From Echinarachnius parma (Eukaryota > Echinodermata > Echinoidea > Clypeasteroida > Echinarachniidae), in assembly GCA_037951105.1 (NCBI GenBank), contig JBAMJV010003033.1, forward strand, positions 124,001 through 188,000: a stretch of 64,000 nt of DNA, given 5' to 3'. Shown piece by piece: positions 5,236-46,997 of this stretch. A program made the position numbers and the translations under genes. Each line of letters starts with the position of its first letter. Within the stretch, counting starts at the first letter, position 1. The notes under the pieces were generated by a model. The model saw nothing but the letters and a program-made list of their open reading frames with translations, was not told the origin of the DNA and made no database searches.

Positions 5236-5448
5236 ATGAGATGAGTCATGACATCTTAGTAGTGGATGAACTGTGAGGGAAGTTCCCCACAAGGCAGGGC
5301 TTGTGATTATGAGCAGCGGTACAGAGACCAAGTTCCTGGCGGGACCCTGCAAGCCGTCCGTCAGTCTGCCCAACATCTCAGTATTACCCCTCACCCGGAA
5401 CAACAACTCCAGGGACAACAACCCTCTCAAGCGCCAGTCAGCAATTAA
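5236..5448 (+). promoter_or_regulatory. Cluster of four upstream AUGs in the long-isoform leader
   Basis: Between the acceptor at 5193 and the main ATG at 5309 there are four ATGs. They are 5236 (ATG AGA TGA, a two-codon uORF with A at -3), 5241 (11 codons, stop at 5276), 5248 (three codons) and 5266. The last opens a 60-codon frame running to 5448, which overlaps the main start in another frame. If this leader is in the mature mRNA, it should lower or condition translation of the long isoform. That effect is inference. Confidence 0.5.
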
Positions 5449-7000
5449 CGGACCTTCCATCATGCCAGAGAGCCTAGAGGTGGACACCGCTAGGAGGAAA
5501 TCATCTATTGGGGAAGATTGGACATCAGAGCATCTTATCACCATCTCCTCGGGAGCTGAATTCTGGAGCGCCAATTCGGACTCTGTCACAGTGGGACCAG
5601 TATCCCCCAAAATCCTTAGTCTGTGCAGCAAGTTTGCCACTCTTGGTGACTCTAGTAGTCATCGAGATCACCTTGCACCCTACAACTCAAGACCGCGATC
5701 TAAGTCTGTCACTCTTGCCTCTGTAGCCGTTGATAGAACATGTCCTGAGAGGAAGTTCTTTCCCGATTTCTTGCAACAAGAATCCGCTATCCATCACCCT
5801 AAGCCCCTCAACCTCATGCTTGCACCTCCTGGATTCTGTCACAATGATGTCGATGGTGGTGGCCTTTTGCCAAAGCAGCTGCTGTCTCCGAGCACAAGTC
5901 CTAGTAGCGGATACGGCAGTGGGGTCAACTCGAGCAGTCCCATTTGTTTGAGTCCCCGAAGCCATTCACCAACTCTTGACATGCATAGTTTGCACAGAGA
6001 ACACAGCGATGAAAAGACTCCAGACTTATTGGAGCCTCCAGATGAAACAAGAACTCTGAGGACTTTGAGTCATGATAGTGGTGTTTCCAGACTGTCTGTG
6101 GACTCTCCGTCTGCAATGGGACGCTCATCCAGCGAAGAGGAACCTTGTCAAGAAAGCCAAAGACATAGTAAAGTTAGGAGTATGCACACACACTTTAGCA
6201 GCAATTTTACCATCCAGGTCCCGAAACCTGTGCGACCACAGTTAGTAAAAACCAAACCAGTATTTCATCTCTATCCTCCTGAAAGTCCAATAGGTAAGAA
6301 ACAACCGGAGGTCCTGTCCCCTGACGAGGGGTTCCAAGACCTCAAGTATCCTCTGGAGCAGTCATCAACGCGTACTGCTTTCTCATTACCTACACCAACA
6401 TATCAGCCAGGGCCACTCAGTCCTGGTCACATGGAAATCAAACGATCAGAGCTGACGGTGAGGTTGAATCCTCCTGGAAGCCCCCTCCCACCTCGTATCC
6501 ATCAGACCTCGCTTGGGCTCGATCAGTCCTCCCCCGAGCGTCACAGACGGCTCCCCAGCCAGGGAACTATGGACAGCATAGAACTGGAACTGCTTGAAAG
6601 GTCCCCTCTCTTACCCCATCACTTAAGTGCTCCCTCTCTAGAGGAGGAACAAAGCGTGCCTTCATCAACCGAGCCGAAGCCTTTCAAGCGAGGCACAATG
6701 CCTCCAGCGCTCGTGATTAGTGATTTGTGTGAGACCACTCCACCCCCAGAACCCTCCCAGCCCGGTGCTTTCATGTCAAACTCAGGACCCAACTCAACTC
6801 TCCACTATCTGACTCTGTCTGATATCCGTTCGGACGTTGTTCTGCGCAAACTGTCGACGGACAGCTCAATCTCGTCCCTCAGCCAGGGCTCCATTGAGGA
6901 CGTCTTGGAAGACATCCACCACTCGGCTTCAGCTCCAGACCTCTCATCGCCTGCCAAGCCGCAACTCTCTGCAGCAGCCAAGAGGGCCCGATTCAGTAGT
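5309..7000 (+). CDS. IP3K: IP3 3-kinase, long alternative N-terminal exon (1L)
   Basis: This exon supplies a 564-residue N-terminal extension for the IP3 3-kinase. The exon probably opens at 5194, after the acceptor TTTCTTTTTCTTGTTCCAG, and ends at the donor AGT|GTAAGT, leaving phase 0. I start at ATG 5309 (A at -3); an in-frame TGA lies at 5267-5269. The protein is rich in Ser, Pro and charged residues and lacks long hydrophobic segments, so it is probably disordered. It has many SP motifs, a basophilic kinase-type site RRKSS (residues 62-66), a Ser-rich stretch followed by DVLEDI (about 511-536), and a basic end AKRARFSS that would join directly to ASSWRKI of the shared exon. Long disordered N-termini are typical of vertebrate ITPKB and ITPKC, where they direct localisation; I cannot align this one to either by eye. 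Membership in the kinase gene rests on strand, phase and order rather than on domain homology. Confidence 0.85.
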
Positions 7001-7869
7001 GTAAGTACAAGATTTCCTTTCTTCTTTAGTTGGCATGTGGCACATGTACTGTAAAGCATTTTTTTTCATTTTTGTTGTTGTTGCATGATTTGGAGCACTG
7101 GGGAAACATGCTTTTGATACATTTGCAACACATCAATATCCAAATACATTTTGTTTTGAAGTTAAGCAATCCTTTCATGAATCCAAAAAGTTGCAGAGTG
7201 TTAAGAGACATGTCAAAATCTAGTTTCTCCGACTACTTTTCGTTGGATCCGTGTTCTCCTACTCTATTATTTTGTCCCTTCAAGTTTTTAAGGTTCAGTG
7301 AAATTACTGAACAAAAGTTGCATTGGTTTCCGTGGTTACTAAGAGGAAATTGCATGCATACTGCTGAACGCACACTCATGCAGACAAAAAACGGCAACAG
7401 CATCGTATTGCTCCAGATATGTTATAATTGTATCACCTCCCTCCCTGTATTCAATACTTAGCAGTCAAGAACATTTTGTATCTTTTTGAAATTATGTTGC
7501 AAGTATATTTTTTCAATATTAAGATTAATATTTTTTTTAAAAGAAGGCGTGAAGCGTTTTTTCCCCCAACGCCAACAGCATCTTATTGCTCAAGATATAT
7601 ATGCTATATATATATCACCTACCTCCCAGCAGTCTAGAACATTTATTTAATCGTCTTGAAAGGTGCTTACAATTTTAGATCTTACACATCATCATGTTCA
7701 TGCATTTATTTGTGTAAATGTTTATTATTTATTTATTTTCATAACATTTTGTTTCCAGATGGTGATTCTCTTTGAATGTGTTTTGTTGAATGTTTTTCAG
7801 TTGATATTTTTACCTGCATAAATTTAGAACTAAAATGTAAAGGCTGCAACATGATATACATAAACACAA

Positions 7870-8081
7870 AAATATACTATATAACATACAATACATGTAC
7901 ACCAAACACAATTTTCCCTGTTGGCTTGTTGTGTAACTCGCTCGTACTATGAAAACAGGCTTTTCTCTCGAACAAAAGGATTTTTCCTCCTTTTCTAGAG
8001 CTATCTAGTATGAACTCAGATAATGTAAGGGTAAGAGGGATGGGTTATTGTGGGAGGGGAAGGGGACGGGGACGGAGGAGG
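7870..8081 (+). repeat. 212-bp direct repeat, copy 2
   Basis: Near-identical to 4391-4602 with no length difference, in the same orientation, 870 bp after the long exon. The high identity implies a recent duplication or gene conversion. Confidence 0.85.
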
Positions 8082-8470
8082 TGGTGGAAATAATTATTGT
8101 GGTGGTGTGGGGGGGGGGGGGTTTGAAGGCTTGGGTGAAAAGCATACATATAATGGCTATGCCTTCTTCTTATGAACCCACTCTGGAAAAATAAAAAAAT
8201 GACTCTATTTAATTGTGCTTCTGTGATGCTAAAGCAACATCATACTAAGCTTTTCACAAACACCATCCTACGCTTTCCTTCAGGAACTCCAAAGGCTTTA
8301 CATAACATTATGCATGCTTGAAAGGTTTCCAAACCTCTGACTTCTCTTATTTTCTTCCTCTTTCTCCCAGTCTAGAAACATGTACAGACTACCTGAAAGT
8401 CTTTATTCATTTATTTACTGAAACCTTTCTCTACATTTATTTTTAGTTCTTTGATTATGTGTGTATTGTG

Positions 8471-8832
8471 TTAAAGGGATCTGGTAACTTTGTTGACAAA
8501 CACATGTGCAAACAGTGGTAAATGGTTGATGTAATGTGTATTTTTGTGATCTGATATGTCCACTTAGCGATGTGTGAAAATTCCATGGTAAATGAATGTC
8601 ATATATGCAAAGTGGAATTTGCCAGCTCACTTTGTACACAGTTTTAAGTATCCAGTAGAAAGTCAAAAATCCAAACACTTCAATCTTAAATATCTTTATA
8701 ATAAAAGAGAAATTCTGAAAACCGAAACCTATTCCATGTTTCTACTGGGAATACAATTACAATGAGATATTTGAGAACTGCTAGACTTCTAGGGAAGTTT
8801 TTGTAAATTTTGACAATGTTACTAGATCCCTA
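8471..8832. mobile_element. TTAA MITE family B, copy 1
   Basis: It begins TTAAAGGGATCTGGTAAC and ends GTTACTAGATCCCTAA, so the right TTAA is damaged. The length is about 362 bp, without coding capacity. The same family recurs near 27934, 28471, 31526, 46258 and 55350. Confidence 0.75.
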
Positions 8833-9294
8833 ATGTTGATAATAAAGATGTAGGGATAACTATGATGTAAAGCGTATAGGGAATTAAAAAACTTTGGCGA
8901 AGTCTTTTTACTTCCTTTTTTTACTTCCTTGTCTGGTCTATTTCTAAATTTACCTTAAATAAGAAAATTGGACAAAGGGTAATTTTTACTCATAATTCTG
9001 AAATAACCATCAACTTGCGGGCAAGCAAATTTACATTTACACAGATATTTTGTATCAGTTTCAATTTGAAAATGTTTGTTTTGCTCTGTTTCATCATAAC
9101 CTGTAGATGCAATACTATTTGACAATCCCAACTCTTGGTTTGAACTTGCTATCTTCGCCCTATTTATCAAAAAGCTTGTGAATATATACATTATGTACAG
9201 TATATTTGCACATAAAATGAAAATTGGATGCATCAAAGTCACCATTACGGCACACAGCTCCAGAAGTGGGGTAACTACTCATCAAAATTGGCAT

Positions 9295-9462
9295 AAATTG
9301 ACAAATAACAGGCAAATTGAATGGACAAATAGACACAAATTGAAGGAAAAATTGGATGGACAAATACGCACAAATTGAAGACAAATTAACTGGTCAAATA
9401 GACACAAATTGAAGACGATTTATGGACAAGTAGACACAATTTGAAGACAAATTGTATTTAAA
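9295..9462 (+). repeat. Imperfect tandem repeat, GACACAAATTGAAG units
   Basis: At least five degenerate units of about 33-38 bp carry GGACAAATAGACACAAATTG with small changes. The block is non-coding. Confidence 0.7.
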
Positions 9463-10651
9463 TTGGACTGGCAATAGCAGAATGCAACATTATAATCACG
9501 TTGGTTGACTATATATTGCTTGAGAGATCTTGATCTCTGCAATGAACCAAAATTGACATTTTCAAATCAGAAATATTTTAAAATTCATTCCCCCTGCCCA
9601 TTCATTTAAATTTGTATCCCCTTTCTGCAAATGTCAGACTGGGTTATATGAATAACTTTTCTTGTCCAGCCAGCTTAACAGCTAGGGATTTTTTTTCTTT
9701 TTCTGCAGTATTTCCTTCAAAATCAATTCATTCTCCATAGACTCCAGCCAAATATATTTGTTAATAACAGTCCTTAACCCAATCAGGACTCGGGCTTGGG
9801 TCTATGGAGAATGCATGTTATGCAAAATCTATCCATCTTGAATGGGTTACCAGATTGATATGAAGCAAAAAGGGAGTATAAGATTTTTCCAACGTACAGT
9901 ATTTGCTAAAAATTCTTTAAATATGATGCACAATTTAATTTGAATACTAATGAACATCTTTATCGCTGCTAGCGGATGACTACTTGCAATTGTAACATAC
10001 AGTGTATCTTGTAGAACTAGACAAGGAGCGAGTTGGGGGTTGGAGGCTTAGGAGTATATATACAGCCCCTCCCATCTAGAGTTTTTAAAACGCCAATACT
10101 TGTGCAAACATTTCCTCACTTATATGGGCAATACTGTACATTTCGTGTATAATAAGCACCTTTTTGGCCAAAATAAGCTAACTTTGAATTAAATTTAAAA
10201 AGGATGTTAATGAGCCCTCCTATAAAAGTTTATAAAGTTTTGCGGCTTTTCAACGGTAACTATAGTACTTGCATATATCATCACTGCACATTTGTACACA
10301 TACTGAATTACAAGCAGATATGAAACAGCATTTGATATCTGATATTGTCTTTTTCTTCATAAAATAGAGGTCTATTTATATATGGTACATTCTCCCACGC
10401 TTCCATTCATACTCTGATTGCTATGAGATGGTTTTATATTGTGTATTGTATTATCATATTCCAGCCTTGCCTCTTGGGCACTTCGAGGAAATCAATTTTC
10501 TGTGACAACGAAGTACAGTGTATTACACCTTTAATTGCAGCATCAATGAGCAAGCACACCTGTTACCATGACAACCACAACCGTTATACACCTACTGTCT
10601 CTGTTTCCACATGAATTTCACTTCTCTCATTTCAAACACAATTACACAATT

Positions 10652-10745
10652 ACGCACACACACATGCACACACACACACAGGCACACACACATACACACG
10701 CACAAGAGGGCTGCATGTACACATACACACATACAATTACACGCC
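10652..10745 (+). repeat. CA-rich microsatellite
   Basis: Interrupted ACACAC runs with GC and TG breaks. Any reading frame across it (rich in Thr and His) is an artefact of the repeat. Confidence 0.85.
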
Positions 10746-11276
10746 CACAACACACACAACAACTTTCCTCTTTAAAACCTGTCTGACCTGTCTTAGCAAC
10801 CACCTGTCTATAGCAGCCAACCCTCCTATAGTTGCCACCCTACACAAATCAGTATTATTGAATCAAAATTACATAACATGTTACAGTGAAAAATGCAAGG
10901 ACTATTTGGTAGAGATTTGTCGTTTTATACCGTACAAACCCTCCGTGGTACTTTTATCTAGACTGGGGCTGATCAAAGAAGTGCATTTTATCTTCCTCGC
11001 TCAAAGCCTATTCATTCAATCACAAAAACATACTATGGGGAGGTTGGGAATCCCTGCAAAGGGGTGTTTTTTCCGGGATATATTTGGAAAGAACTATGTA
11101 CATTCAAACTTGTGAATTATAGTTACCACCTAGGGAAACAATGAAAGTGGCCACTGTAGACAGGTGACCTCTGTAGGCAGGTTCTGTAACATTGTTTTTT
11201 TTCTTCAGGGGATCACTTTTGGTGATCGCTGAATATGTCGTGTTAAATTTACTTTTCAACAATTCCTTTCCCTTCA

Positions 11277-11303
11277 CCCCCCCCCCCCCCCCCCCCCCCC
11301 CCC
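11277..11303 (+). repeat. Poly-C run, 27 bases
   Basis: Uninterrupted C homopolymer; the minus strand reads as poly-G. It is one of about ten long G or C runs in the window. Confidence 0.9.
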
Positions 11304-11953
11304 TCCCCTCTGTGTTCCTTTTTAGTTTTGCTAGGTTGGTAGACAACAAATTTTTTTGGATGGCCACAATAAATTCAGCCGTGTAAAGTTTCTAATAAGC
11401 ATCTAACTGTATCATGCTCTGCTTGTAAACCCTGAAATCAATCTATGATTTAGCTTGAAAATGAAATGCTGCCCTCTTGGGGCAGAGCTGAGTGGAATAA
11501 CATGTAAAGCCAGATAGAGATCTGTGCATTATTGGTTCTTTTCATATACATTTTCGGTCAACAGACTTCCGATTTAACTGAGTGAGGTAGAAAATGAAAC
11601 ACTCACATTTATGCGCAAATACATGACCATCTCATGAAACTGCACTTGCTTTAAATAGGTCCATTCTAGTTCTGTTTTAGATGATAGGTCTCTAAGTATG
11701 CATCAAGATATTATTATAGTTGCCAATAATGCCTACTTGGAAACTAGGTTGGACTTTTGTAGAAGGTAATAAATGCTTAATAAACCATTGTTTGTGAGGA
11801 AGGAACCTTGAGCTGTGTTACTTTCTTAGCTCATGAATCTAAAACATTTTGAAAGGAACTACTGTATATTAAAGCTAACTACAAGTAGTATGCCCTTTAT
11901 TTTTTTAAAGATTTTCATTTACTGTACATACTACATATAGCAATATATTTACA

Positions 11954-12295
11954 TACAATCAAACCTGCCTAAGCGACAACCTGCCAACCTCTCTGTAGTG
12001 GCCAATACAAGTGATTTCATGCAGCAAAAAATGTATGGAACCTGTCTATTGAGGTCACCTGTGTACAGTGGCCACTTTTCTTGTTTCCCTTTAGTATTCA
12101 CTACTGTACAACAGTTTGACTGTGCGTGTACATTCAACCTGTGTATGCACAGTCAAACCAAGGTCAAACTTATACTGTACACATGTACAGTAAAATCTGT
12201 GTATGTCAAGTAATACCTGTGTATAGTGACCACTAAAAGGAAACAAGAAAAGTGTCCACTAAAGACAGGTGGCCACTAAGACAGGTTTGACTGTA
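11954..12295. mobile_element. MITE with CAATCAAACCTG / CAGGTTTGACTG ends (family F), copy 1
   Basis: It begins TACAATCAAACCTGCC and ends GACAGGTTTGACTGTA. The interior is built from alternating CACCTGT and GTGGCCAC-type motifs in both orientations, so the element is largely self-complementary. A diverged relative occupies roughly 10784-11190. Other copies are at 26571, 39690 and 45449. Confidence 0.7.
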
Positions 12296-12553
12296 TACCC
12301 AGAATATCTCTTCAGGTAAAATATGGACCAGCTCAGTAACAAATTCATATAATTTGCATACATGTCATATGAGTTGTTTGAACAGCATTGCAACCTGAGA
12401 GCTTGTCAGAGGTTTTCCTGACAAAGCAACAAGCCAACAACTAATTATGCATGCAAGGTGGATTCCACACATTGAATTGTGTGTGATAAAACAGGCTTGT
12501 TGAATAGCTTGTCTCCAGGTCGAAAGGCAGGAAACACATTTTGAAATCTATGT

Positions 12554-12783
12554 TATGGCCCGGTCAGATATCAACGGACATCGGAAACGTATGCCCAACG
12601 AATAGACAATTTGTGAAATTAAATTATCCGGTGATGAAAGTCGTCTCCATTGCTTCATGTACAAAACATAGAACAACGTACATCACCGGACAAGGAACGG
12701 ACAAGAAACGTATAGAATGGATGGAAAATTTAGCTCTCCGTTTGACCTCCGTTTGCTCAATCCGTTGATATGTGACCGGGCTA
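12554..12783. mobile_element. 230-bp inverted-repeat element, TA-flanked (family G), copy 1
   Basis: Left end GGCCCGGTCAGATATCAACG pairs with right end CGTTGATATGTGACCGGGC. TA lies outside both ends, consistent with a TA target duplication. No transposase frame. It is CpG-richer than its surroundings. A diverged relative lies at 33617-33820. Confidence 0.65.
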
Positions 12784-12867
12784 TTAATTGTAGAATAATA
12801 ACTATGTGATTCATGTCTGCAAACCATGAAACAGATCAATCTATATACCCAGTCATATATGCGTTTG

Positions 12868-13293
12868 TTAAAGGGGACCACCAGGCAAAGAACAACACAT
12901 TATTATATGTTTTGGTACCGTTTTGTGATATCAAATAGATACCCAACATTTTGCAAAGGGTTGTGTAATTCATAAACAAATCAATTAATTTCCACCACTT
13001 ACGGAACCACTACTATTTCCTGGTTCCATACGGGCCAACCATTTGCGAGTGCGCCAATGCTATTCACGCGTACGTTTGTAGACAATAGATTCCCGGGCGA
13101 TTCGTTCGCTCTGCACACATTAGTCTTCGCAATTTAGACCGCATGAACGCTTGCTTTAGAATGGTGATGCGTTTTCCAATTATATATTTTTTTCTGGAAA
13201 CATATTTTTGTGAACTTGTTGATGGAATGGAATACTAAAGATGTTACTTTTCTTTAATAAGAATATTATTTTTTGGGTGGTGGTACCCTTTAA
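12868..13293. mobile_element. TTAA MITE family C, full copy
   Basis: It begins TTAAAGGGGACCACCAGG and ends GGTGGTGGTACCCTTTAA. The 426 bp carry no coding capacity. The ends fit TTAAAGGRR. An internally deleted copy lies at 22073-22298. Confidence 0.8.
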
Positions 13294-13639
13294 ATAAATT
13301 AAATGGATGATCACACGACTTTGGATCTAAAAGCCAAAATGATTAAACCCAAAATGATTAAACCCAGATCATAAATTACTTATTCAAATTTGATGGATTA
13401 TTTGATTAATATGTAAACATGTGCATAAGAAATCGTAGTCTAGACAAATTTCATTGCAAAGCCAATGTTATAATCTAAATTAAAATGAATCTTGACATAT
13501 TTTCAACAAATTTAATCTTTTACACAATTTGTGGTGAAACATTACATGTTAAAGCATTTGATTTGATGTTGTTGCTACTTTTGCTTTATTGAATAAAAGA
13601 AAATTCTTGATTGAAATGTCATGTAATAAAAAATACCCA

Positions 13640-13770
13640 AAATGTGATACAAATCTAATTTTGAAGTACAAATACAAAAATTATGATACAAATCTCATTG
13701 TGAAGTATGGAAGAAATGATAACAAATACAAAAATGATGATACAAATCCTAATTGTGAAGCATAGAAGGA
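13640..13770 (+). repeat. Degenerate tandem repeat, about 55-bp unit
   Basis: Three units contain GATACAAATCTAATTTTGAAG-like and ACAAATACAAAAA segments. Non-coding. Confidence 0.65.
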
Positions 13771-13989
13771 AATGGTAGTTAGGACGGGAAATTGTGCTAT
13801 ATATAATTCCCACTGATAAGATATCTTTGAAAGATACATGTAATTAATAATTTATCATATACATGTATATATGCATCATCTTGGTGGCACAAAGCTCTCC
13901 CCGTTAACTTTTGCCCAAGATAACAAAATTGCTTTCAATAGATTTTGTATGAAATGTTCTCACCCACCATTATATTTATTGCGTGGACA

Positions 13990-14590
13990 GTTCTCCCTCT
14001 TATAAAACTGCACAATTAGTCAGTAACCATAGCATTGTATGTGTAAATTGTCTATTCAAAGCGTCCTATTCGTTCCAAATGTTTGACGTAATAGCTGCTT
14101 TCAAATTATACCCCACGCAGCATTTCATTTTATATGAATCGATCAATTTTTATAACAGAAAGAGGTTTCTCATAATATAAAAAATATAATGCATGCTTTT
14201 TCTTCATGCTTTATTAAATCAGTTTTTATGGGTCATTTTGCAAAATTGCCATGTTAATATATCATCAACCCTTTCATTCAGAGCCTTCAGTCCTTTCCAA
14301 ATGTTTGATATTAATACCTTCTTTAAAAAGATGCCCCATATAGCGCCATTGTAAACATAAAAGCATAATGTAAGAGAATTTTACTGATAAAAAAAACTTT
14401 GATGGCCATTTGGTTAACTGCTTTATTAGATATTATTTTATGGGTCATTTTGCACAATTGCCATTTGCATACCACTTTCATTTTGATACAGATCTTTCTC
14501 CTTTGCAAATGTTCTGACTACTTTAATGCACTGCTGTTAATTTCTTATAGAAGTAAACAGCTTCAAGAGAATGTAAGAACATACCTCTAA
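13990..14590 (+). repeat. Degenerate tandem repeat, unit about 215-225 bp
   Basis: TTATGGGTCATTTTGC recurs about 213 bp apart (about 14226 and 14439). TTCCAAATGTTTGA recurs about 222 bp apart (about 14074 and 14297). Together they show roughly three decayed units. Confidence 0.6.
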
Positions 14591-15158
14591 AAATGTAAAA
14601 GGTAATTTCATCCTGTTCATATTTTTCTCATTTATCAGAATAAATGTTCACAATAACAAAATTCACAATATACAATGGAGGAATTGTCGCAAATATTGAA
14701 GGCAATTATTCTGTTTACATTTTACTTTAAATGAGCTAGCTGTAGAGCAAGAAAAGTTATTATGTTCCATATTTGTTCAATTTCATCTTGTAACCATGCC
14801 AACCACTTGCTTACCCTGGTAACTCCGGGGCCAATAAGCACACAAACAAGGAGCTTCTTGCGCTAACTATGATAGCAGTTTTATCTTTAGATTGCAAAAG
14901 TAAACTGTATTTTATGAGTGTGCATGCTTGCCTCTGTGTGCTGATGGATGTATTATCCATTTATAGATCTGTGGTGTGTTGTAATTGAGATAGGACTAAT
15001 TGCAGACTGTTTTATTCATACTATTTTGATACAACAAAATTCTGCTTCCCATCTTTAAAGATATATTTACAGGAGAAATTTGGACTGATTCTCTGTGCAT
15101 GATCATTCTGGGTTTGCATCGATTATATACTTTCTTATTTGTTACTCAGCTTCCATTT

Positions 15159-15402
15159 GTGACTGACTATAGCAAAACCCGGCACTTGTCACTAATTCAT
15201 GTTTTATGGCATTTTATATTCACACAATGTGTGTAAAAGACCTATGATTGTAAAATTGAAACAATCATATCTTCGCCAATTATTGACCAATTAGTTAGAA
15301 CAAAGGATCAAATGAAAGCTTGTGATGAGGCATTTGTAATGATATGAAAATCGACATTTTGATTTTTACCGACAAATGACGGGTATTGCTATAGCCGGTC
15401 AC
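15159..15402. mobile_element. MITE with GTGACYGRCTATAGCAAAACCC ends (family H), copy 1
   Basis: It begins GTGACTGACTATAGCAAAAC and ends GCTATAGCCGGTCAC, with CACTTGTC near the left and its complement near the right. Length 244 bp. Copies recur at 23066-23296 and 31706-31956. Target duplication is unclear. Confidence 0.75.
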
Positions 15403-15743
15403 ATTTAGTCATGTTTTCCTATAAAGTTAAAGTGGCCCCGACATCAAAAGGATGCAAAATTACTTTTAGACTGATTAAACAAAATTTTCACTGAGAATCT
15501 TTATATGATGTAAAGTGTATTTCCCCCCCCCCCCCCTCATGTTTTTTTTTTTTTTTGCCCAAATGCTGTTTGCATTAATTACAGAAAAGGGGCATGACAT
15601 TGCAGTTTTGTATGTGTCTAGATAAATGCACTTGACATAATTGAGCCATTCCTCTGAAATCGCAAGTTTTCAGGGGGCGGGGCTTAGGAAGTCCTGGAAG
15701 CCTTTTAAACTGGTGAAAATGTGTCATTTTCTGTTATTGTACT

Positions 15744-25671: not shown

Positions 25672-25961
25672 TACTGTCGGACTGTTTGCCTGGGAGACCT
25701 GGGGTAGATGCAGTCTGCTGGTACCCTGTCTCTAACCGCTAGCTATCACACAGATGTTGCTATCAGATGCATGCTGCTATCAGATGCACGCTGCTATCTT
25801 CATATTACTCTCTACTTGTTTACACCTTTATCGGTATTGGTGACCCATCGCATTTTAGCCGGATCTGAAGATATACGTATACTCTCAGTGACATGACCTC
25901 AATTCTAACTCTTATATTACGTTACCACGGATATCTTTAATTGCATCAAGCATAAACAAAC

Positions 25962-25970
25962 TATATAAAG
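25962..25970 (+). promoter_or_regulatory. TATA box of the exon 1M promoter
   Basis: TATATAAAG is a near-ideal TATA element, 106 bp before the ATG at 26076. Transcription would start about 25990-26000, giving a leader of roughly 80 nt. That leader contains no other ATG, unlike the leader of the long isoform. Confidence 0.6.
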
Positions 25971-26075
25971 TGGGCCCATTTCATTTGGAAGGCAGCATAC
26001 CACTGCACACCAGCAAAGGCCGATCTGCTTGTCGCTGACAAAGCTGAGACATTCCTCAATTGCTGTTTGCTTGCC

Positions 26076-26435
26076 ATGAAGGATAAGAACGGTGACGAGA
26101 CTGCGAATAGTACCATGGAGGTGACGAATCGGGAAGTTGCCGTTGGAAGCGGTTTGGATTCGGATCGGGACGACGCGGTTGAGCGCGGCTCGGAATCGAA
26201 CCCGAGTGATGCTGTTGGAAGTGTGTTGAAGTCGGATCAAGGGGATGCGGTAAAAGGCGTCTTGAATTTGAGGCAGCTTAATGCTGTCCGAAAGGTCATG
26301 AAACGCCTTGATTCCGTTGATGCGCAGGTCAAAGCCTCTGCCGATTCGGACAGCGATGACTCTCTCCTGGACGAGTGCTCCAGGATCTGCATGTGTGAGA
26401 AGTGCGTGCCCAAGACCCCTCTTAAGGTGGGACCG
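26076..26435 (+). CDS. IP3K: IP3 3-kinase, alternative N-terminal exon 1M
   Basis: A 120-codon exon that probably gives a shorter N-terminus for the same kinase. ATG 26076 sits in GCCATGA (G at -3). The frame is closed upstream by TAA at 25953-25955 and ends at donor CCG|GTAAGA in phase 0, matching the shared exon at 46898. The sequence is acidic and low in hydrophobic residues. Residues 22-81 form five 12-residue units, each starting Ala-Val (see 26139-26318). A Ser/Asp cluster and a Cys-containing tail (CMCEKC, then TPLKVGP) follow. A TATA box lies at the right distance upstream. I do not recognise the segment from any known kinase; assignment to this gene rests on strand, phase, splice donor and position. 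It could instead belong to an unknown nested gene. Confidence 0.7.
26139..26318 (+). repeat. Five 36-nt coding repeats within exon 1M
   Basis: Residues 22-33, 34-45, 46-57, 58-69 and 70-81 each begin Ala-Val. The best-conserved pair reads AVGSGLDSDRDD and AVGSVLKSDQGD. The DNA repeats share GCNGTTGGAAGNG and TCGGATC. Units four and five have drifted towards basic and leucine-rich composition. Confidence 0.7.
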
Positions 26436-26570
26436 GTAAGAATAAGATGCATAGAGCTGCTTTTTAACCCCCTCTGTACCTTTAACAATATAGAACTACA
26501 GTTTTCCCCACCTATAATCAGGTATTTGGTTGTCTATTAGTTGTTTCTATTTCAGGAAAGATGAATTGAG

Positions 26571-34085: not shown

Positions 34086-34144
<59 letters not shown>

Positions 34145-36110: not shown

Positions 36111-37667
36111 CATAGAAATTTTATTTCCCTATGGTTGGTAGCATTCCTCTTGTTATACATGTACCCTTTTCAGACCATGACACAGTCAGACCTGTTCTAG
36201 CCACAACCTGTATAGCATTACAGTATGATACAGTAACTTTTTGCTTGTAAATGTACTTGCAACTGTACTTGTATATGATGTTTATGGTGTGCTCTTGCAA
36301 AGAAGAACAAAAAAACGAGTGAACACTTACTCAGCATGCATTCAAAGACCTGTCAATGTCTTTTTCTGCTGCCTAGCATGAATCATTAATCTTGCATAAA
36401 TACATATTGTTTTTTCCTGATTGTTTTAATAGCTCGGATGTCTTGTGATAATTTCAGGTGGGGGGGGGGGGGGTGTCTTGGTTCATAATGGGAGTGTTTG
36501 GTATGAAATGGGCATAGTATATTCATATAATTACACCGAGACCTCAGAACTTGTTACTTGCGTAGCCTGCCACCTTGCAAAGACAGTTTCTGAATGGACT
36601 TGAATGGTGCCTTGCATAAAAATTGATTCACAGCCCTTAATAAAAACAGAGTATTACAGGCTTTTGATAAAGATAGATTCTCATCCATAAAATAAAGACA
36701 GAAACACAGCCTTCAACAAAGATCAATTCAGAGCCAGCTATGATAAAGATAGTTTCACAGCCATCTATTTATATACATCTCTTTTATATTCAAGAGTCTT
36801 TTATGAAGATATAAACGAGACGTGTCAAAGTGATAAAACATCACTGTCAAGGCCGCACACCACTGGCCCTACAGTATGTGTGATGTACGTGCCATACTTT
36901 CTCATCTCCCTTTGATTGTCTGTTTTATACTTTGATGAAAGATAGGTGACCTTGGTTTCCAAAGGAAGAGAAACAGTACGCAGTATCGACTCCTAACACC
37001 GGTGTAAAAGAAAAATATATCGACGAGTGAAAAATCAAAACTGTGACAGCAGGTGAAAAATGAAAACTGAGGGCCAAGATGTGCAGAATGATACAACATG
37101 TGCCTTTGTTTTTGTTTTCCTAGCATGAGAAGCTTCAAATTATGATAGACACTCTGTGTGTGGCCCTTTTATTGAACATTGACGTAAAGAAAACTTGACA
37201 AGACTCTCATATAGTTATCATTATTTGTATAGTCGCCCATTACAAATCACTTCGAATGTTCGCACAATGCTGGACAAATACAGTCTTTGAACTATAGAAT
37301 AAATCTGGGGGAATATTGGAATATAAATGAAGTTATCTTTTTTTTCTCTTAATGAGTCATGAACATGAATTTATGACAGAATACAAAGCATACATACACT
37401 TGTTACTCAAATTTAGGTGACTGATGCACATGCATGTACAAATTAACTTGTCAAAAACAGGTACAAAATACTGCTCAGGCTTGATTAAAAAGACATATAA
37501 CAAATTAATATAAAATGGTTGATTCTGTAAGCTTATTTATTTCAAAATTATTATATTAAGTAGATTTTAAAAGAGATTTTTAAAAATTGATAATTTAAGT
37601 TGATTTAAAAATTTATTTTTAAAAATTTATTTCAAAATTATTATATTCAGTTGATTTTAACTTAATT

Positions 37668-38034
37668 TTAAATGGGTAGTACATTTTTGGTAAGGCTGAG
37701 CTTTAGTAAACAAAACCTGCACAATAACATTACAAACTAATAGTTATAACTCCACCATGCTCGAAGGTATAGAAAATTACAAATGACTAAGTAAAAAGCC
37801 TGTTATCATTAAAAAAAAGCCATTAAAAAAGCATTGGTTTCAACCATTTTTTATGTTTTTATAATTATATGTATATATTTATTGATATTTCAGCCGTTTC
37901 TGAACCAATTTTGATAAAATAAAGTTGTTTCTGTCATTAAATTGTATGCTCTTTCAAATGTTACACTCAGTTTTTCATTATCTCACACATTTCATGCAGC
38001 GCCCTCTATACCAAAGCTGAACTACCCCTTGAAG
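37668..38034. mobile_element. TTAA MITE family D, decayed copy in opposite orientation
   Basis: It follows the reverse complement of family D: AACCTGCA, CAAACTAATAGTTATAACT, then GTATGCTCTTTCAAA and GCGCCCTCTATACC. Internal deletions and many substitutions make it an old copy. Confidence 0.75.
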
Positions 38035-39689
38035 TTCTAAGACTGAACCATTGAGGATCTGTAGATTAGGAATAAAACATATATATACAAAAGCAAAATT
38101 CAAATATTTTTATAATTTTTGAAAAATTTTAAATACAAAAATTTTGAAATTTCCTGTGTAATATTTCACCCCATACTCACATATCACACTTTTCTGTCCT
38201 AAAACAGTTTTTTTTCCATCTGTATACATTTGAAAGAAGTATAATGAAACCTTTATTAAAACAGTTTACATGAAATATTCCTGGTATTTTGTTCAAACAA
38301 GTATGTACACTTGAAAACCTCAAAATACTTCACTATGTCATCAGTAATATTCTTATATTATCTTCTTGTATTGCTGTCCAAACTTGTATCCACATTATTT
38401 GTAACCATTCCCGAAAATCGGTTACTTTAATCCTCTTTCGGTTACTTATCATTTTTACAACTCTTTTATCCAACAGAACACTGTTTGCCGAGCACAAAGT
38501 CAATATGTCCTCTCTTGTAATGCGTATCAGCCAGGGCCCTCCTAAACATGCAATGTCGTTTAAAGGGTCGGTCTTGTAGAGGTTTAAAATGAAAGGTCCG
38601 AAAAAATATTGTGATTTTTTTGGAAGTGCCATAGTATTATAATAAGGTTATTAGCAGGAAATATATTTGTTAATACAATTAATAATGAAGAGAAATTTAA
38701 TTGGCAACAATAGTCATTTTTGACTGATTGTTATCGAAAAAAAACAACAACATAAAATCCTTATGCACAAGTAATGCAGTTCTTGATTTAGCAATAGATA
38801 TTTATGAAGTACTTGTACATAATTATGCTCACATAGGGCCATGCTATCACTATTAAAGTGATCCATGAACTTCATTCACTTTTTTGAAAGTGATAATTTG
38901 AGACTTCAGACATACACCAAAATTATTGTTCAGGTTTCTTCTGAATGATGTGTGATAGTTTCATAGAAAAAGAACACTGTTTAACTAGTGAAAAAAGGTG
39001 ACAATTGATGTACTGTCCAATTTTTTGTGTCAACAATTAAAAAGCATTCCTGAATGCTTTCAATTCAATCATAAATATAAATGAACTTCATACATGTACA
39101 TGCTTGTCAATATTTATCTTTGTAAATGATAGCTATTCATCAAATTTTGTCTAATCTACTTCACAAGATTATTATTATCCAAACTTTCCACTCAGCCACA
39201 ACAAAGCGCGTGCCCTTTAAGTCTAAATTAGATGAGTTCAGAGTGATAAGTGATCTGTTTGACGTCATAGCCCTGTGTGTACATTGCAATCCCCCACAGA
39301 GATAACAATGGGAGCCACTTGTGGATGCTCATAATAGTTGTCATTTATAGAATGGAACAACCCATGTTTTCTTGGCACCCTACAATGAGCAGGGAAACCA
39401 AAGTTTGTTTTGTTACTTGTGAGCTGACTGCACAACTTTGATAATACATGTGTGATATGAAATTGAGAATAGCAGTGAACGAATAATAACAAAATGAATG
39501 TTTGTTTTAGTTACATATATATATGTGGACTGAATGCACAATGAAATTATACATGTATGGAATTGTGACCCCCTGCCTTAATTATAATGTTCAATCATTA
39601 GCTCTCAAATCCCCCTTGCAAAGACTGTACTTATGCATCCACACATATATACAATGTTCTTTTCATTGATACATACAGCATTCAAATAT

Positions 39690-39850
39690 GACTTTTATAG
39701 CCACCACACGTCTATAACAACCACCTGCCTATAGTGGCCACCATACATGATCCCCCGCAGATCAAAACAGTGTCATGGATCCTGTCTCTTAAAGGTCACC
39801 TGTCTATGATGGCCACTTTTCTTGTTTCCTTAACACAGGTTTTACTATAA
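39690..39850. mobile_element. MITE family F, decayed copy
   Basis: It contains CCACCTGCCTATAGTGGCCA, the GATCCCCCGCAGA motif and TGGCCACTTTTCTTGTTTCC shared with copies at 11954 and 45449. The ends are eroded. Confidence 0.55.
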
Positions 39851-41411
39851 TTCATACTTGTTAAATCTAATTAAATCTATTGCTTTCTTTGTAAAATACA
39901 AGTCCTTTAGAAGTTTCATATTCATGAACAATTATTAACAAAAAAGATCTTTTGAGTTTAGAGTACATGTTATGCAAAATATATCCACACCAAATAGACT
40001 AGTTTGCTGTTCATATGGTATGCATTATACTAGTAACAAATGTTGTTCCTGATATTCTGTAGGCTTGCCACAAGTTTGCATGACATAGTAGCAACTAGAA
40101 TATGCAAGGTTTACTTTAAACAGGTTATTTTCATTGCTTATCTTTAGATCAGTAGGAAATGGGCATGGCATGCGTACATTTGAATAACTGGTATAGTGGA
40201 GAGAAGTTTGTAAACGTGAACCTAAGTGAGCCTGTCCCTTCCTTGCCAGAAGATGGCAGCAGGCAAGAATGATTAAAGAATCAAAATGAATTTCAGGCAG
40301 GATAATTCAGGGGATGAACAGATGGTGACTTGGTAGCTGGTCTTCATCCATTCGGTCTACTCCCGCTTTGTCTTCTTGCATAGTCAGAATTTAAAGGGTT
40401 AAGATTATGGTAAGAGGTTGGGATTAGAAAAAAAATTCAATAACATCATTTGTATAATATAATTATATGCTCTGATACTACTTTTCTAGCATGCTGGCTG
40501 CTGGCATAATTTTTGTTGTTGATATATTTATTTGATTTGCATTGAACTCTATGTAGGGGGCTCTTATGTGATGTTTTAAATTTTATTTTCATTATTTTTT
40601 TTTGTGGGGGGGGGGGGGGGGTGGGGGCACAATAGCCCTGAGAATTCCATGCACTGGGCTTGGGGTGGCAAAAATAGCCCCGATAAAAAAAAGTAATGAA
40701 TAAAATTGCTCTTACAAAAAGATTATTTTACATTTTCTTGAAATTGTCTGCAACTTTGGGTTCTTAGCTAAAGGGAATCCCCCAAACTATATCTCATAGT
40801 AAGATGGTAGTCACATATATATAATATTCGCCTCGAATAGGCTACCTACTGTAGATAGATGGTGCTTTATAAATGCTTGATATTATTATTATTATCTCAG
40901 AAACTTCAAATTATTAGTTCAGAATTTGCTTTTCAAAGAATTGTACTCTGCGTCATCAAAAAACAAATCAAACTGCAAAGGCTAGACAGGTTTCATCAAT
41001 GGAGACTCTCTGAGGATATTAAATCAGATTTGAATAGTTTCTAACCCTGTCACTTCCATGTTAGGAAATAACCATAGATTTGATGTATAATTAGTGCCCA
41101 CGGTAAACAGAGGGTTAAAGGTAGAAGAGCATGTAATTTGTTCTTTCACAGATGAATTAGGGGATTTTCCCTCTCTGTTGATCATTCATTCAAGCATCAC
41201 ACACTTGTAATCTAATAATCTCTAGCAAGCTGATTGTCTTTCCTTGCGAGGAAAATGAAATTGTATTTCTATGGCCTCTTTTGTGGCCTGTGGGCATCAA
41301 ACAAGAAACTCTAGCTGGTAACCATTTTGAGTTGGAACTCAATGATAATAATTTGACAAGGACTGGAAGGGTTTTGGGGGTCGAAATCGCTCAGAGCCTG
41401 CGAGTAATTAT

Positions 41412-41714
41412 CTTGTTTTCATTACATTTTATTTACTCACATCCATATGAGATACATCAATAGAAAAACAATGCATAACAATATAGATATATTTTTGTTG
41501 TAAACATGTCGGGACTTATTTGTCGCTTTACAATGTCGCTTTCAAAACTCAACCTGAGTTAATAGTGGGATGTGATCTAATATATCCCTGAACTCGGCGA
41601 TGGTGATGTTTTCTTTCCTCGGAAGAGATGTTGATGCCAATGCGGTAGCCATAGCAACCAGTGCTGAGAGATTATCTTTACCATGGAAACTTAACCCATT
41701 ATGCCAGTGAGTAA
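41412..41714 (-). CDS. Candidate terminal exon of an unidentified minus-strand gene
   Basis: On the minus strand the acceptor TTTTTTCTCTCTCCAG precedes an open frame starting at 41714 with two bases of a split codon. About 56 codons follow (THWHNGLSFHGKDNLSAL at the start, DILDHIPLLTQVEF at the end), then TGA at 41544-41542. AATAAA (minus strand, 41433-41428) lies about 110 bp downstream, so acceptor, stop and poly(A) signal are correctly arranged for a last exon. The frame has mixed composition, is not low-complexity and is less AT-rich than its surroundings. I do not recognise the protein. If real, the gene is nested antisense within the kinase intron, and its other exons would lie to the right. 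A retrocopy fragment or a chance frame remain possible. Confidence 0.35.
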
Positions 41715-42288
41715 CTGGAGAGAGAAAAAATAACAAATGTAAAGACTACACCGTACATTACAAATAGCCATATTGATTGCATCTATTTAGTATTTATACT
41801 AGAGCTAAGACAATGCTCAAATTTAGAATAATATGTGCAGAATACTGTGCATTTATTGCGTATATGAAAAACATATGCAGTTAAATCTTTAGATGAGAGA
41901 GAACTTGTACATAGTTCCTTAGGTAAACCCTGTCTTGTCTTAAACTATAGAGGGCACCAGTCACCTTTGGTTTGGAGGTAATGCTCATCTCTTTCATGCA
42001 TTGTGGAGCAAAGTGGGGGAATTGCATTGCACACTAAGACACATTTTACATATAACCAACGTGAGCTTACGTGAAGCACTTGCAGTTCTAAGAATTTAAT
42101 TAATAAAATCTATTAATAAACAGCAGAGCTTATACTCTCATCTTGTGAGCCTTTTGGAATATTTTAGTACTTGGGGGCATTGAAAACTAGTGTTTTAGAG
42201 CATTATAAAGTGAAAACTTACAACTCAATTTATGAAAAAGCTTATCATCATTACCCCATATTGTTTTGTTTGTTTTTTGTTTTTGTTT

Positions 42289-42379
42289 TTGTTAGTTTGT
42301 TTGTTGTTGTTGTGTGTTGTTGTTGTTGTTGTTGTTGTTGTTTTGTTTTGTTTTTTTGTTTTTTTTGGGGGGGGGGGGG
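42289..42379 (+). repeat. GTT microsatellite followed by T and G runs
   Basis: (GTT)n with TTTG blocks, then 13 consecutive G. Low-complexity, non-coding. Confidence 0.9.
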
Positions 42380-42639
42380 TCGGGGGGAGGCTTTACCACC
42401 CAATCTTTATGCTTGATGCCCAAAATAGATTAGTCTTTAGAGGTACATTGGAACAAACTAAAGGCAATACTTACAACAGTATAACTACCTTTTTTGTGTT
42501 TTTATTAATACTCCCATTGACAAAACTTACAGAACAACCAATAAAAAAAGTGCCCAAAGACGAGTACACATTCAATTACAGTATTACACGCAACACCAAA
42601 AATACTCACAAATAAACAAAAGGATATATACATTCACAA

Positions 42640-43490
42640 CACATGCACGCACTGATGCTTACACACACACACTCACATGACATAAACAAACTGTCAGATA
42701 CACACATCGTCCACAAACCTTTTCTCTATGAAGAGAATCTCATTCTAAGAGTTGCCTTACACATGGAATGATACTCTGGCTCTCCCAATTCTCACGTCAA
42801 TACACACAATAACACACCTACAGACAGACAAACCTACACAAACACAAACTTAGTTTCAAACTCATACACACATACGCATACACATAAACCCACAATAGTA
42901 CACGCATAATCTGTCTATGATGGGAATCTCATACCGAGAGTCAGTCTAACACATGGATTGAGAGTTTGGCTCTCCTTTAAAATCTAATATCACATCATAC
43001 AATAACTCATATACAGACAGACAAACCCACAAAAGTTCAAACACAAACATAAAGTTTTAGACACACACATATGTATACACACACACTGCCTATTATGGGA
43101 AACTCGTACTGAGATCATTCTAACACGTGGATTGAGAGTTTGGGTTAACAATAACACACATACAGACAAACATGCACCAACTTAGTTTCAGACACATACA
43201 CATGCACATAAACCCACAAAAGTACACACACCCTCTGTATATGATGATAATCTCATACTGAGAGTTCACCTGACACATGGATAGCGAATTTGGCTCTCCC
43301 AAATAAAGTCACTTCACAAAATAAACACATACAGACACACAAACACAAACTTCATTTTCAGACACACATACATAAACACACACATAAACCCACAAAAGTA
43401 CATACACACTCTGTCTATGATGGGAATCTCGTACTGAGAGTCAGTCTAACACGTGGATTGAGAGTTTGGCTCTCCCAATTCTCACGTCAC
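42640..43490 (+). repeat. Minisatellite of about 150-190-bp units with CA-rich spacers
   Basis: Five units carry TCTNTGATGGGAATCTC, ACTGAGAGTCAGTCTAACAC and GGATTGAGAGTTTGGCTCTC in order, joined by (CA)-rich stretches with ACAGACAGACAAAC. Unit lengths vary. The array ends about 1.2 kb before exon 1S. Confidence 0.85.
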
Positions 43491-44169
43491 TTGACAACGC
43501 ATAGCAACCAACGTGCATTTCCTGTCCGCACCGAGGCCGACTACTTGGACGGTTTATAATGATTTGAGTGGGCAAAAGTTGCAGCAAATCAGAAGACACC
43601 TTAGGCATGCCATAGAAAGCTCTTCTGCCTTCTACTGTCCCTTTTAATGAGGCGCTAATTGGTGCTGCTGTTATGAATTAACTTGTATTAAACATCTCGT
43701 TTGATTAGCCGCGCTGTCATTCTGCTATAGATGTTGGTTTTATGAGCGTTGGACATTGTTTTGTTGGATGCACATTGAAACTCTACCTTGTTAGGCCTGC
43801 GACATTCGATAGTTGATGTGGAAGTGGAGTATCTGGTGAAATGTTAACAGTTTGGAGCCAAGTTTTCAATTTGAAAATGTAACAATTTGCAATTTGATTT
43901 TGAGAATTGCCACCTCTTGAGTAGCTCTGTCATACCTTATTTCTGTAAAGTTAAGCAAAGGAGCAAAATTGATGCTCAATTTGATTTCGTTATTTCAATG
44001 CTGACTTGCATTTTTTCTCTGAATTGCTTTGAACAGTTTATATCTTCTTTCTGGAAACAGATGAAGATAAGCGCGTGATTTTCTGAAATCAAGTTTAATC
44101 AACTACCTACCTACCAAGTTTTGAATTTGAAATTTTAAGCTGTGTTTAAATCAGTCTGTTTAGTTCAAC

Positions 44170-44600
44170 TTAGAAGTCAAGGGATGAAGTTAAGATCTAT
44201 TGGCAAAGCAAGCCTGGTGAGATGTCAAATTGACTTGGATATTCTGTTGATAACTACCTCAGTAAAGACTGGTTTAGTAACAAGTTGACTTATATAAAAA
44301 AAAAAAAACTGAGCTCAGAAAAAGACCTAGATTCTGTTGATGAAGACTGCTTTGGTTACAAGTTGACTTTCATTTGAAGATTCCAGCCAAGAAGATTTGT
44401 TTGGCCATAAACTGGCTTTCGTTTTAAAGGTCGAGCTAAGAAAGAGCCTTAGAATCTATTGGTGAAGACTGCTTTGGTTACAAGTTGACATTCATTTGAA
44501 AATTTGCGCCAAGAAACAGACTTAAAATCTTCTGGCTGAGACTTATTTGACGACAAGTTGGAATTCATCTGTGGCAACCTGTTTTGATTAGCGCTTGCTC
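44170..44600 (+). repeat. Degenerate tandem repeat just upstream of exon 1S
   Basis: GAAGACTGCTTTGGTTACAA occurs twice, about 140 bp apart. Weaker units share ACAAGTTGACNTTCATTTGAA and GCCAAGAAA. The block lies 70-500 bp before the ATG at 44672 and may be part of that exon's 5' leader. Confidence 0.7.
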
Positions 44601-44671
44601 TATTGCAGGTTGACTAGATTTGTTTTGCTATCTCTTGTCAAATCAAACCTTGTAAAAGAACGTGACCAGTA

Positions 44672-44812
44672 ATGTCTGCCAAACTGTTCGCTGGACCTAA
44701 GCCACCCTCACCACCGTCGTCCGTCATTGCCAATTTGAGCACCATGAAGAGCATGATGATTTCGTCCGAAGTCTACCTGGAGATTTTTGTTGGCTGCGTT
44801 GTATTCTTATTG
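44672..44812 (+). CDS. IP3K: IP3 3-kinase, alternative N-terminal exon 1S
   Basis: A 47-codon exon that would give the shortest N-terminus. ATG 44672 (G at -3) follows an in-frame TGA at 44663. The exon ends at donor TTG|GTATGT in phase 0, compatible with the shared exon 2.1 kb downstream. Residues 1-30 are Ser/Pro/Lys-rich. Residues 34-47 (VYLEIFVGCVVFLL) are hydrophobic and would lie directly before ASSWRKI of the kinase, suggesting a membrane-associating N-terminus. That is inference: 14 residues with one Glu is short for a full span. If the donor is not used, the frame continues to 44866 and yields a 64-residue peptide with a hydrophobic C-terminus of about 30 residues. T-rich DNA encodes hydrophobic residues by chance, so the exon is less certain than 1L. 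Confidence 0.55.
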
Positions 44813-45448
44813 GTATGTTTGTTTGGTGCATTGTACATGTATGTCTATATGTTAATTTTAATCTAATTAAGTGCTAAACAACTAACAAAAAGATAAAGCT
44901 TAAATTTCCTGATATTACATCTAAATAGATGAATGGAATGTGAGTTAATGTTAGTCCTCTTTCTTTTTCCTCCAACTTTTTCACCCTTTGCAAATATTTT
45001 TGCATCAAGTAATCATGGTAATAGTGACAAAAACTAAAAGATCTTTGCATAATTTATCTCAATCTCATATTTTCTTGATTAAGTTAGCTATAACTGTAGC
45101 TAGGTGTAAAACAGCATAGCTGTACTACATTTATGGCCAGACTCTGTACAATTCTTTTTTCAACTTTTGCAGTCAACACAAAGGCAACAAACAAACACAT
45201 TACACATCAATTGTACAACCCCCATTTATCAACTGACCCTTTTTGTTAAAACTTGCATATTCAAATATGAGTTAACTTTCATTTCCTGCCCGTCTCAAGA
45301 AGTAGCTGATTATCCCTCGTTAGTCCATTTTATGAAACTTCCTTAGCATTCACTCACCACCTTCTTCTTCCATAGCCATATCATACAATAACCTCCTACA
45401 ACCTCCTAAACACCCTCCAGATCCCCTTCAATATACACTCTAAAGAGA

Positions 45449-45628
45449 TACAATCAAACCTGTATTAATATAGTGGCTAACTGTCTGTAGCAGCCAACCT
45501 GCCTATAGTGGCCACCAAAAGTGATCCCCCGCAGAGAAAATCAATGTGAAGGAACCTGTGTAGATTAAGATATGGCTTCTTCTCTTGTTTCCCTTTATAG
45601 GTGGTCACTATACACAGGTTTGACTGTA
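45449..45628. mobile_element. MITE family F, copy with good ends
   Basis: It begins TACAATCAAACCTG and ends CACAGGTTTGACTGTA; 180 bp. It has the shared CCTGCCTATAGTGGCCACC and GATCCCCCGCAGAG motifs. Confidence 0.75.
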
Positions 45629-46257
45629 TAACAAGATGAAGATTAAGATCGCTTTGAAAAGATTAATTCATGTATATATGTAGGAACAACAAACTAAGTA
45701 GGAACATGATATACAAGGCGTTGGTTTGAATTGTTTTGTCAATAAAACGATGTGATAACACACTTTATTATTGTTCTCATGGAAATGTTATTTAGGAGGA
45801 AGAACTATTTATTTCTGTATGGCTTCATAACAGTTGTATCTGTTCATTTCCTTCTTGACCTGTTTTTCTGTTACTTTTAAGCATATTTCATTTTAGCCAT
45901 AGTTTTTCTTTCAGTTCCTGTTGAAACAGAACTTATTTTATTCATATAAACATGTAAAAGCAAAACAGTAGTCATCATCATCACTAAATTGCTGAAGCGA
46001 ATGCATAAATGTTGTATGCATGTCTGACGACATTTTGTAAGTGTTTTAATTTGCATTTTGCTTCTATTTCTCATTTGTCTTCCGAGACTGATGACTTAGC
46101 ATGTAGAATTCTGCTATTACATTTGTCATCCGTACATCTGTATATCATTGTGCAATGTTATACTAACGTTTTCTGTTTGGCAGAAATATATCTTTTTAGA
46201 ACCTTCCATGGGCATGGCAAGTGGTGGACACTACAGTTTACGCGTAGGCCTCCATCT

Positions 46258-46653
46258 TTAAAGGGACTTAGTAACATTGTCCAAATCCTCAAAATAAAAT
46301 TGTAATTCTAGCGGTTCCTTTATACCTTGTTGTATTCGTATTAACAATAAAATCATGGGACAGCTTTCGGTTTTTCAAATTTCCCTTTCATTACAAAGAT
46401 ATGTATGATTGAAGTATTTAGATAAGAAAATCTCCGGGCGAGATTTTCATCCCTGTACAAAGTGAATGCAGTGAGTTGGTGAATATCACCCAATATCACT
46501 TTGCATTTTCGCTCATTACTTGGCCATACATTGTCCATTTGACCTGAAATTTTCACACAATACCCTGAGGACATATGAGATAACAACAGTATACATTGCA
46601 TCAACCATTCATCAGTTTTTGCACATCTCAACAAAGTTACTAGATCCCTTTAA
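46258..46653. mobile_element. TTAA MITE family B, inverted copy
   Basis: It begins TTAAAGGGACTTAGTAAC and ends AAAGTTACTAGATCCCTTTAA. Both TTAA are present over 396 bp. The interior matches copies 2 and 3 in reverse orientation. Confidence 0.85.
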
Positions 46654-46683
46654 CCAATTGTGTTTTTGGTTTGTTTTCCCTTT

Positions 46684-46706
46684 GGGGGGGGGGGGGGGGG
46701 GGGGGG
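46684..46706 (+). repeat. Poly-G run, 23 bases
   Basis: Uninterrupted G homopolymer about 190 bp upstream of shared exon 2. Confidence 0.9.
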
Positions 46707-46897
46707 TGCTAATTCCCATTGGGGATGAAACCAATTTTCGAGTAATTTAAATATCTTGCTATTTTTCATGAAATAAATATTTGATTATTTATTAATTTGA
46801 TTTTTCTTGTGCGTTTGTCATTTTAATCAGTTATATGATAAATCTATGATGATTAATTATTTTGTTGTTTCTCTTCTTTGTTTGCGGTGTACTACAG

Positions 46898-46997
46898 GCC
46901 AGCTCATGGAGAAAGATTCGCAACATGGTGCACTGGTCTCCGTTTGTCCAGTCCTTCAAGAAGAAGTACCCCTGGGTCCAACTTGCCGGACATCAAG
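46898..46997 (+). CDS. IP3K: IP3 3-kinase, shared exon 2 (calmodulin-binding region and N-lobe start)
   Basis: This is the first kinase-core exon. It encodes [15 protein letters not shown] followed by a Lys/Trp-rich stretch ([14 protein letters not shown]), closely matching the region of vertebrate ITPKA/B/C just before and into the catalytic domain. In the family, the Trp/basic segment binds Ca2+/calmodulin, which stimulates conversion of Ins(1,4,5)P3 to Ins(1,3,4,5)P4. The acceptor is CTACAG|GCC in phase 0; the donor is AAG|GTATGT after 33 codons plus one base, so a Gly codon is split to the next exon. All three alternative first exons end in the matching phase. The frame stays open upstream into the intron, so an unspliced reading is possible but not needed. 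Identification of this exon is firm. Confidence 0.95.

Follow-up and report, generated by a model that had tools for sequence, protein, structure and literature searches.

In vertebrates, IP3 3-kinases are encoded by three genes, ITPKA, ITPKB and ITPKC, whose N-terminal regions differ and whose calmodulin region lies just ahead of the kinase domain; the N-terminus of ITPKA reportedly binds F-actin (Schell 2001, cited in PMC12283734). Alternative first exons are frequent in animal genes. In Drosophila IP3K2 (wavy), several transcript isoforms are built around contiguous shared core coding exons, and both the tryptophan on which calmodulin binding depends and the PxxxDxKxG motif, named there as an active-site motif, lie within the four coding exons that every known isoform contains (PMC4751550, Figure 3 legend). 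Isoforms around a common core are thus already known in this gene, and the likeness to the locus described here rests on these shared-core isoforms, since the legend is silent on how they start. According to PMC11000326, C. elegans, Nematostella and Ciona have one IP3K gene, Drosophila and Branchiostoma floridae two, and human three, and 23 of 31 animal IP3K genes have six introns. In flies, isoforms exist alongside two IP3K genes. No work on alternative first exons in an IP3 3-kinase from this kind of animal appeared in the literature search, and alternative starts are not described in the relevant parts of the honeybee work (PMC5717273, PMC4932443).

The window, the whole 64,000-nt stretch of Echinarachnius parma DNA that was analysed, contains a locus that shares the common core of these systems and probably varies the front of the kinase within one gene. 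With a probability of roughly 0.7, the first coding exon of this IP3 3-kinase gene exists in at least two alternative versions, a long one (1L) and a medium one (1M), and possibly in a third, short one (1S), each of which would be joined to the acceptor at 46898 in phase 0 (Table 1). The support is unequal: 1L is safe, 1M good and 1S borderline. A sequence-only reading had reported frames of 564, 120 and 47 codons, each running in phase 0 up to a GT donor, and a shared exon that opens in phase 0; our reading of the window reproduced both, and the phase agrees in three of three first exons. Transcription from these exons and their junctions with the shared exon are what we infer.

Table 1. Features of the IP3 3-kinase locus (positions in the window unless a contig is named)
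Feature	Position	Strand	Remarks
Predicted 5' leader part of 1L exon	5194..5308	+	four upstream ATGs (5236, 5241, 5248, 5266)
1L, long first coding exon	5309..7000	+	564 whole codons; phase-0 donor AGT/GTAAGT; found once in assembly
TATA box ahead of 1M	25962..25969	+	TATATAAA; CA step at 25993-25994, 32 nt on
1M, medium first coding exon	26076..26435	+	120 codons; phase-0 donor CCG/GTAAGA; found once in assembly
Five diverged 12-residue repeats	1M codons 19-78	+	units REVAVGSGLDSD to QLNAVRKVMKRL
1S, short candidate first coding exon	44672..44812	+	47 codons; phase-0 donor TTG/GTATGT; hydrophobic end
Core exon 2, shared, putative calmodulin-binding region	46898..46997	+	100 nt; follows ...TACTACAG; phase-0 start; one base left for next exon
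Core exon 3	59995..60135	+	weak donor GTATCC
Core exon 4	60478..60550	+	encodes PSVMDCKMG (PxxxDxKxG active-site motif)
Core exon 5	61799..61853	+	core search and edge reading
Core exons 6 to 8	C3032:189912-190061, 190471-190644, 192836-193051 (stop)		beyond the window

The core exons were located with an ITPKB query, their edges were read, and the exons were then joined. The joined core consists of seven exons, three of them outside the window, with compatible phases and 302 residues followed by a stop, and each predicted form of the gene has seven introns. The core aligned over its full length to ITPKB and ITPKA. In a PDB search with the 1L form, the matches included ITPKB chain 2aqx (4.9e-126) and ITPKA 9qgk (2.5e-122); the core is nearer to ITPKA, B or C than to IPMK or IP6K, since all seven matches at E up to 0.001 belong to one of these three. 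Pfam placed the core in family IPK (1.9e-39), and the IPK catalytic motifs PSVMDCKMG and IGSSLLFVHD...WMIDFGK are present in the assembled protein. By these matches the core is clearly an IP3 3-kinase, in agreement with the sequence-only reading.

A putative calmodulin-binding segment precedes the kinase domain in the shared exon. It aligns with HWQKIRTMVNL-PVISPFKKRYAWVQLAGH of ITPKA, also located ahead of the kinase domain, where the Trp-X-Lys-Ile-Arg calmodulin region of that protein is found. Because this region is encoded by the shared exon, all three forms should carry the calmodulin-binding tryptophan region. This speaks against the earlier proposal that the alternative exons provide different calmodulin responses; different localisation or turnover among the forms is possible.

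The 56.8 kb that precede the shared exon were scanned for candidate first exons, forward-strand stretches running from an ATG to a phase-0 donor at least as strong as that of 1S, and each was scored with a coding model trained on 1L and the core. Among the 34 candidates, 1L scored 239.7 bits, 1M 52.0 and 1S 7.0; 1L and 1M each contain one nested shorter candidate, and the remaining 29 scored at most 1.2. Two of these 29 equal or exceed 1S in length, at 52 and 57 codons, with scores of -21.8 and -37.4. When the model was trained on the core only, the scores were 55.0 (1L), 47.1 (1M) and 1.5 bits (1S), and the rank order of 1L, 1M, 1S and others was kept. The coding character of 1L and 1M is well supported, and the top three independent candidates of the 34 are 1L, 1M and 1S.

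In 40 first-order Markov copies made from 38.2 kb of the intron sequence, 27 candidates of at least 47 codons arose, none of which combined 47 codons with 7 bits, a cut-off set on 1S itself. In eight control sequences (173 kb), six candidates passed both thresholds, five of them in coding exons: one ALDH-like exon, which we take to be such, one core exon of the kinase gene, and three stretches in IPK loci that had been chosen as controls because such genes are present there. The filter is imperfectly specific, since the sixth is a low-complexity stretch (57804-58004). In six further control sequences (60 kb), three candidates passed, all in one stretch of L025 forward, with two sharing a start.

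Acceptor-like sites, defined by at least 10 pyrimidines in 15, are present before 1L, 1S and the core, and none was found in 25900-26076 before 1M. The site upstream of 1L, TTCTTTTTCTTGTTCCAG, contains 14 pyrimidines in 15 and directly precedes 5194; 1L is therefore probably exon 2 behind a non-coding leader exon. A TGA at 5267 lies in frame ahead of its ATG. The predicted leader contains four ATGs from 5194 onwards, compared with none in the leaders of 1M (from 25993) and 1S (from 44609), and these would make 1L translated less well. The 1L donor is of fair strength (2.91 bits, versus 4.2 to 7.1 in five of the six core donors). No known domain was found in 1L by Pfam at E up to 1, and a PDB sequence search gave no match. 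When whole 1L was compared with ITPKA, 66 of 1000 shuffles were as good; the last 110 residues gave a weak alignment equalled by 10 of 1000 shuffles, for a stretch that was picked after seeing the alignment.

The odds that 1S is a real first exon are about even. Its donor is also fair (2.29 bits on the same scale), an in-frame TGA at 44663 precedes it, and its synonymous-only log-odds are 3.2 or 4.8. The acceptor-like site upstream of 1S, with 10 pyrimidines in 15, directly precedes 44609, and 1S may be a second exon after an unseen non-coding first exon. A phase-0 entry at 44609 meets a stop at codon 3, so that a coding internal exon from this position is excluded and 1S needs its own ATG. 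Pfam at E up to 1 identified no known domain in 1S, and its comparison with ITPKA gave no significant alignment (104 of 1000 shuffles as good).

The alternative that fares best holds that only 1L and 1M are genuine and that 1S is a chance open intron stretch adjoining the shared exon, which we rate a little short of an even chance. Such a reading is consistent with the 1.5 bits obtained under core-only training, and with a hydrophobic end that a T-rich intron can supply: the stretch across the junction of 1S and the core, EIFVGCVVFLL/ASSW, has a 19-residue Kyte-Doolittle mean of 1.94, and an equally hydrophobic 19-mer occurs in 19 of 222 intronic stop-free stretches of at least 40 aa. Homology between the starts of 1L and 1S (KFLAGPCKPS and KLFAGPKPPS) was also considered and rejected as not significant, since shuffles did as well in 412 of 5000 cases when only the first 45 residues of 1L were used and in 1186 of 3000 against all of 1L; the chance reading gains from this as well. 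Against it, 1S leads the candidates after 1L and 1M, ahead of the other 29, and no comparable candidate came from the 40 Markov copies. Moreover, the assembly search gave no dispersed repeat copies of 1S: each of the three first exons was found once, 1S apart from an adjoining 83-nt repeat piece, and therefore none is a dispersed repeat in that search. The earlier claim of three alternative first coding exons thus stands for 1L and 1M, which are well supported as coding, and is weaker for 1S. If 1S is real, a membrane anchor is possible; that it forms an N-terminal signal anchor which leaves the positively charged WRKIR cytosolic and holds the kinase on the ER beside the IP3 receptor, with the 1L and 1M forms soluble or cytoskeletal, is a long shot.

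For 1M, evidence beyond its score comes from the repeats. The protein has a period of 12 residues, with 21 of 108 matches at lag 12; of 5000 shuffles, 6 attained this count at some lag between 5 and 24. Between units, base identity at a lag of 36 is 31/48, 31/48 and 17/48 at codon positions 1, 2 and 3 (Fisher p 0.0013, from unit comparisons that overlap one another), and the corresponding values from two unit pairs without overlap are 18/24, 17/24 and 9/24; no comparable match was found at lags 33, 35, 37 and 39. The differing codon pairs comprise 23 synonymous and 81 nonsynonymous ones, and therefore the units have changed in protein as well. The lower identity at third codon positions is as expected if protein-level constraint followed duplication. 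The antisense strand is also open (25917-26495), and codon scores on the strand of 1M are ambiguous, with 42.6 and 41.3 for two antisense frames versus 52.0 in frame. The open antisense frame was rejected as the conserved reading, because the variable bases of the repeat would fall at its first codon positions.

A second alternative, that only 1L belongs to the kinase and that 1M, lying in the long first intron, is a separate small gene or a retained relic whose reading runs to a stop at 26538, seems improbable. The 1M frame is indeed open, upstream to 25956 and downstream past the donor to this TAG, and 1M resembles no known protein, with a best Pfam match of 0.054, below the cut-off, and a best PDB match of 0.17. 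Yet 1M ends at a strong phase-0 donor (5.01 bits), it lies on the same strand as the kinase, whose acceptor is the next usable one in phase, and the repeat test shows that its protein frame has been preserved. Comparison of 1M with ITPKA gave no significant alignment (376 of 1000 shuffles as good). A single-sequence prediction for 1M alone has a mean pLDDT of 59 and two predicted helices at 65-87 and 95-105, and 1M is thus predicted to be mostly without structure.

The TATA box upstream of 1M and the absent acceptor-like site fit 1M as a first exon, and a promoter of its own is plausible, although TATAWAWR occurs 70 times on the + strand of the window, which corresponds to a chance of about 1/10 of finding one before the 1M ATG. 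The separate promoters proposed in the sequence-only reading are thus plausible for 1M, where the CA step also agrees, whereas an acceptor-like site lies shortly before both 1L and 1S. That a single long transcript uses these exons internally (e.g. 1L-1M-core), with no alternative first exons, is very unlikely: the phase-0 ends of all three would keep the frame at the donors when joined, but 1M has no acceptor-like site upstream, entry at 44609 stops in codon 3 and the in-frame stop at 5267 lies ahead of 1L.

Under the preferred reading of alternative first coding exons, the 302-residue core, with catalysis and calmodulin binding, would be common to all forms, and 1L, 1M and possibly 1S would be alternative fronts, each joined in phase 0 to 46898. 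Transcription of 1M would probably begin at its own TATA promoter; 1L would probably be entered from a non-coding exon further upstream, and its upstream ATGs may make it less efficiently translated. Which first exon is used would then set the site of expression and the N-terminal region, largely disordered, of the kinase, and this region may in turn influence where in the cell IP3 becomes IP4, with catalysis and calmodulin binding unchanged.

When the core was searched against the 1.2-Gb assembly, eight matches were obtained among the best ten candidates, all on contig C3032; seven correspond to the exons and one to a weak partial repeat of the final exon. As far as this search shows, the animal has one IP3 3-kinase gene, although a remote second gene is still conceivable; the single locus of the earlier reading is upheld among these best candidates. 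Drosophila, in contrast, has two IP3K genes (PMC11000326). Searches with the core, 1L, 1M and 1S found no haplotypic or paralogous copies in the assembly usable for a substitution test. The further suggestion that one locus does the job of the three vertebrate paralogues is an analogy: one locus was found, but 1L, 1M and 1S showed no significant likeness to a vertebrate N-terminus. If the preferred reading is true, a single-gene animal varies the front end of its IP3 3-kinase by choice of first exon and offers a testable one-gene counterpart of the three vertebrate paralogues, and N-terminal variety predates, or is independent of, the vertebrate duplications.

Further matches in the assembly were obtained with the IPK family on contigs C649, C9496 and C5561, none of which matched the IP3 3-kinase core query among its best candidates. 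C649 is presumably IP6K-like. C9496 weakly matches IP6K (0.03) and C5561 matches IPMK (2.2e-9); IPMK and IP6K belong to the same Pfam family, IPK, as the core.

Repeated sequence lies close to two of the candidate alternative first coding exons of the IP3 3-kinase gene, 1L and 1S. The two copies of the direct repeat that flank exon 1L are 98% alike and are spaced 3479 bases apart, and the pieces of the tandem duplication share a likeness of 84 to 99%. Near 1S, the first copy of the 83-nt unit has a likeness of 86% with one of the other two copies and of 60% with the other, and the copies possibly fall within the leader or promoter of this exon.

The antisense frame over the third candidate, 1M, gained no support as a coding frame from the codon-position comparison among the five diverged 12-residue repeats of the 1M protein. 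The G run ahead of the acceptor shared by these exons is a possible G-quadruplex or a possible weak spot of the assembly.

Features in and past the window
Feature	Position	Strand	Relation
Tandem duplication, period ~490 bases	2139-3083		
Direct repeat, 212 nt	4391-4602 and 7870-8081		one copy each side of exon 1L
Open antisense frame, 192 codons	25917-26495	minus	overlaps exon 1M
83-nt unit, three copies	44311-44588		a short way upstream of 1S
G run, >20 G	about 46685-46706		~190 bases ahead of shared acceptor
Repeat of last coding exon's end	L009 (own numbering) 5002-5400		past window
Exon, aldehyde dehydrogenase-like reading	C3032 (the window's contig) about 206.9 kb	minus	past window

Farther along, the closing stretch of the final coding exon (gatgatacagtcctggactgacctagtgcc...) is repeated in the 3' region, ~180 and ~360 bases downstream. 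The minus-strand exon has a protein reading that we take to resemble aldehyde dehydrogenase.
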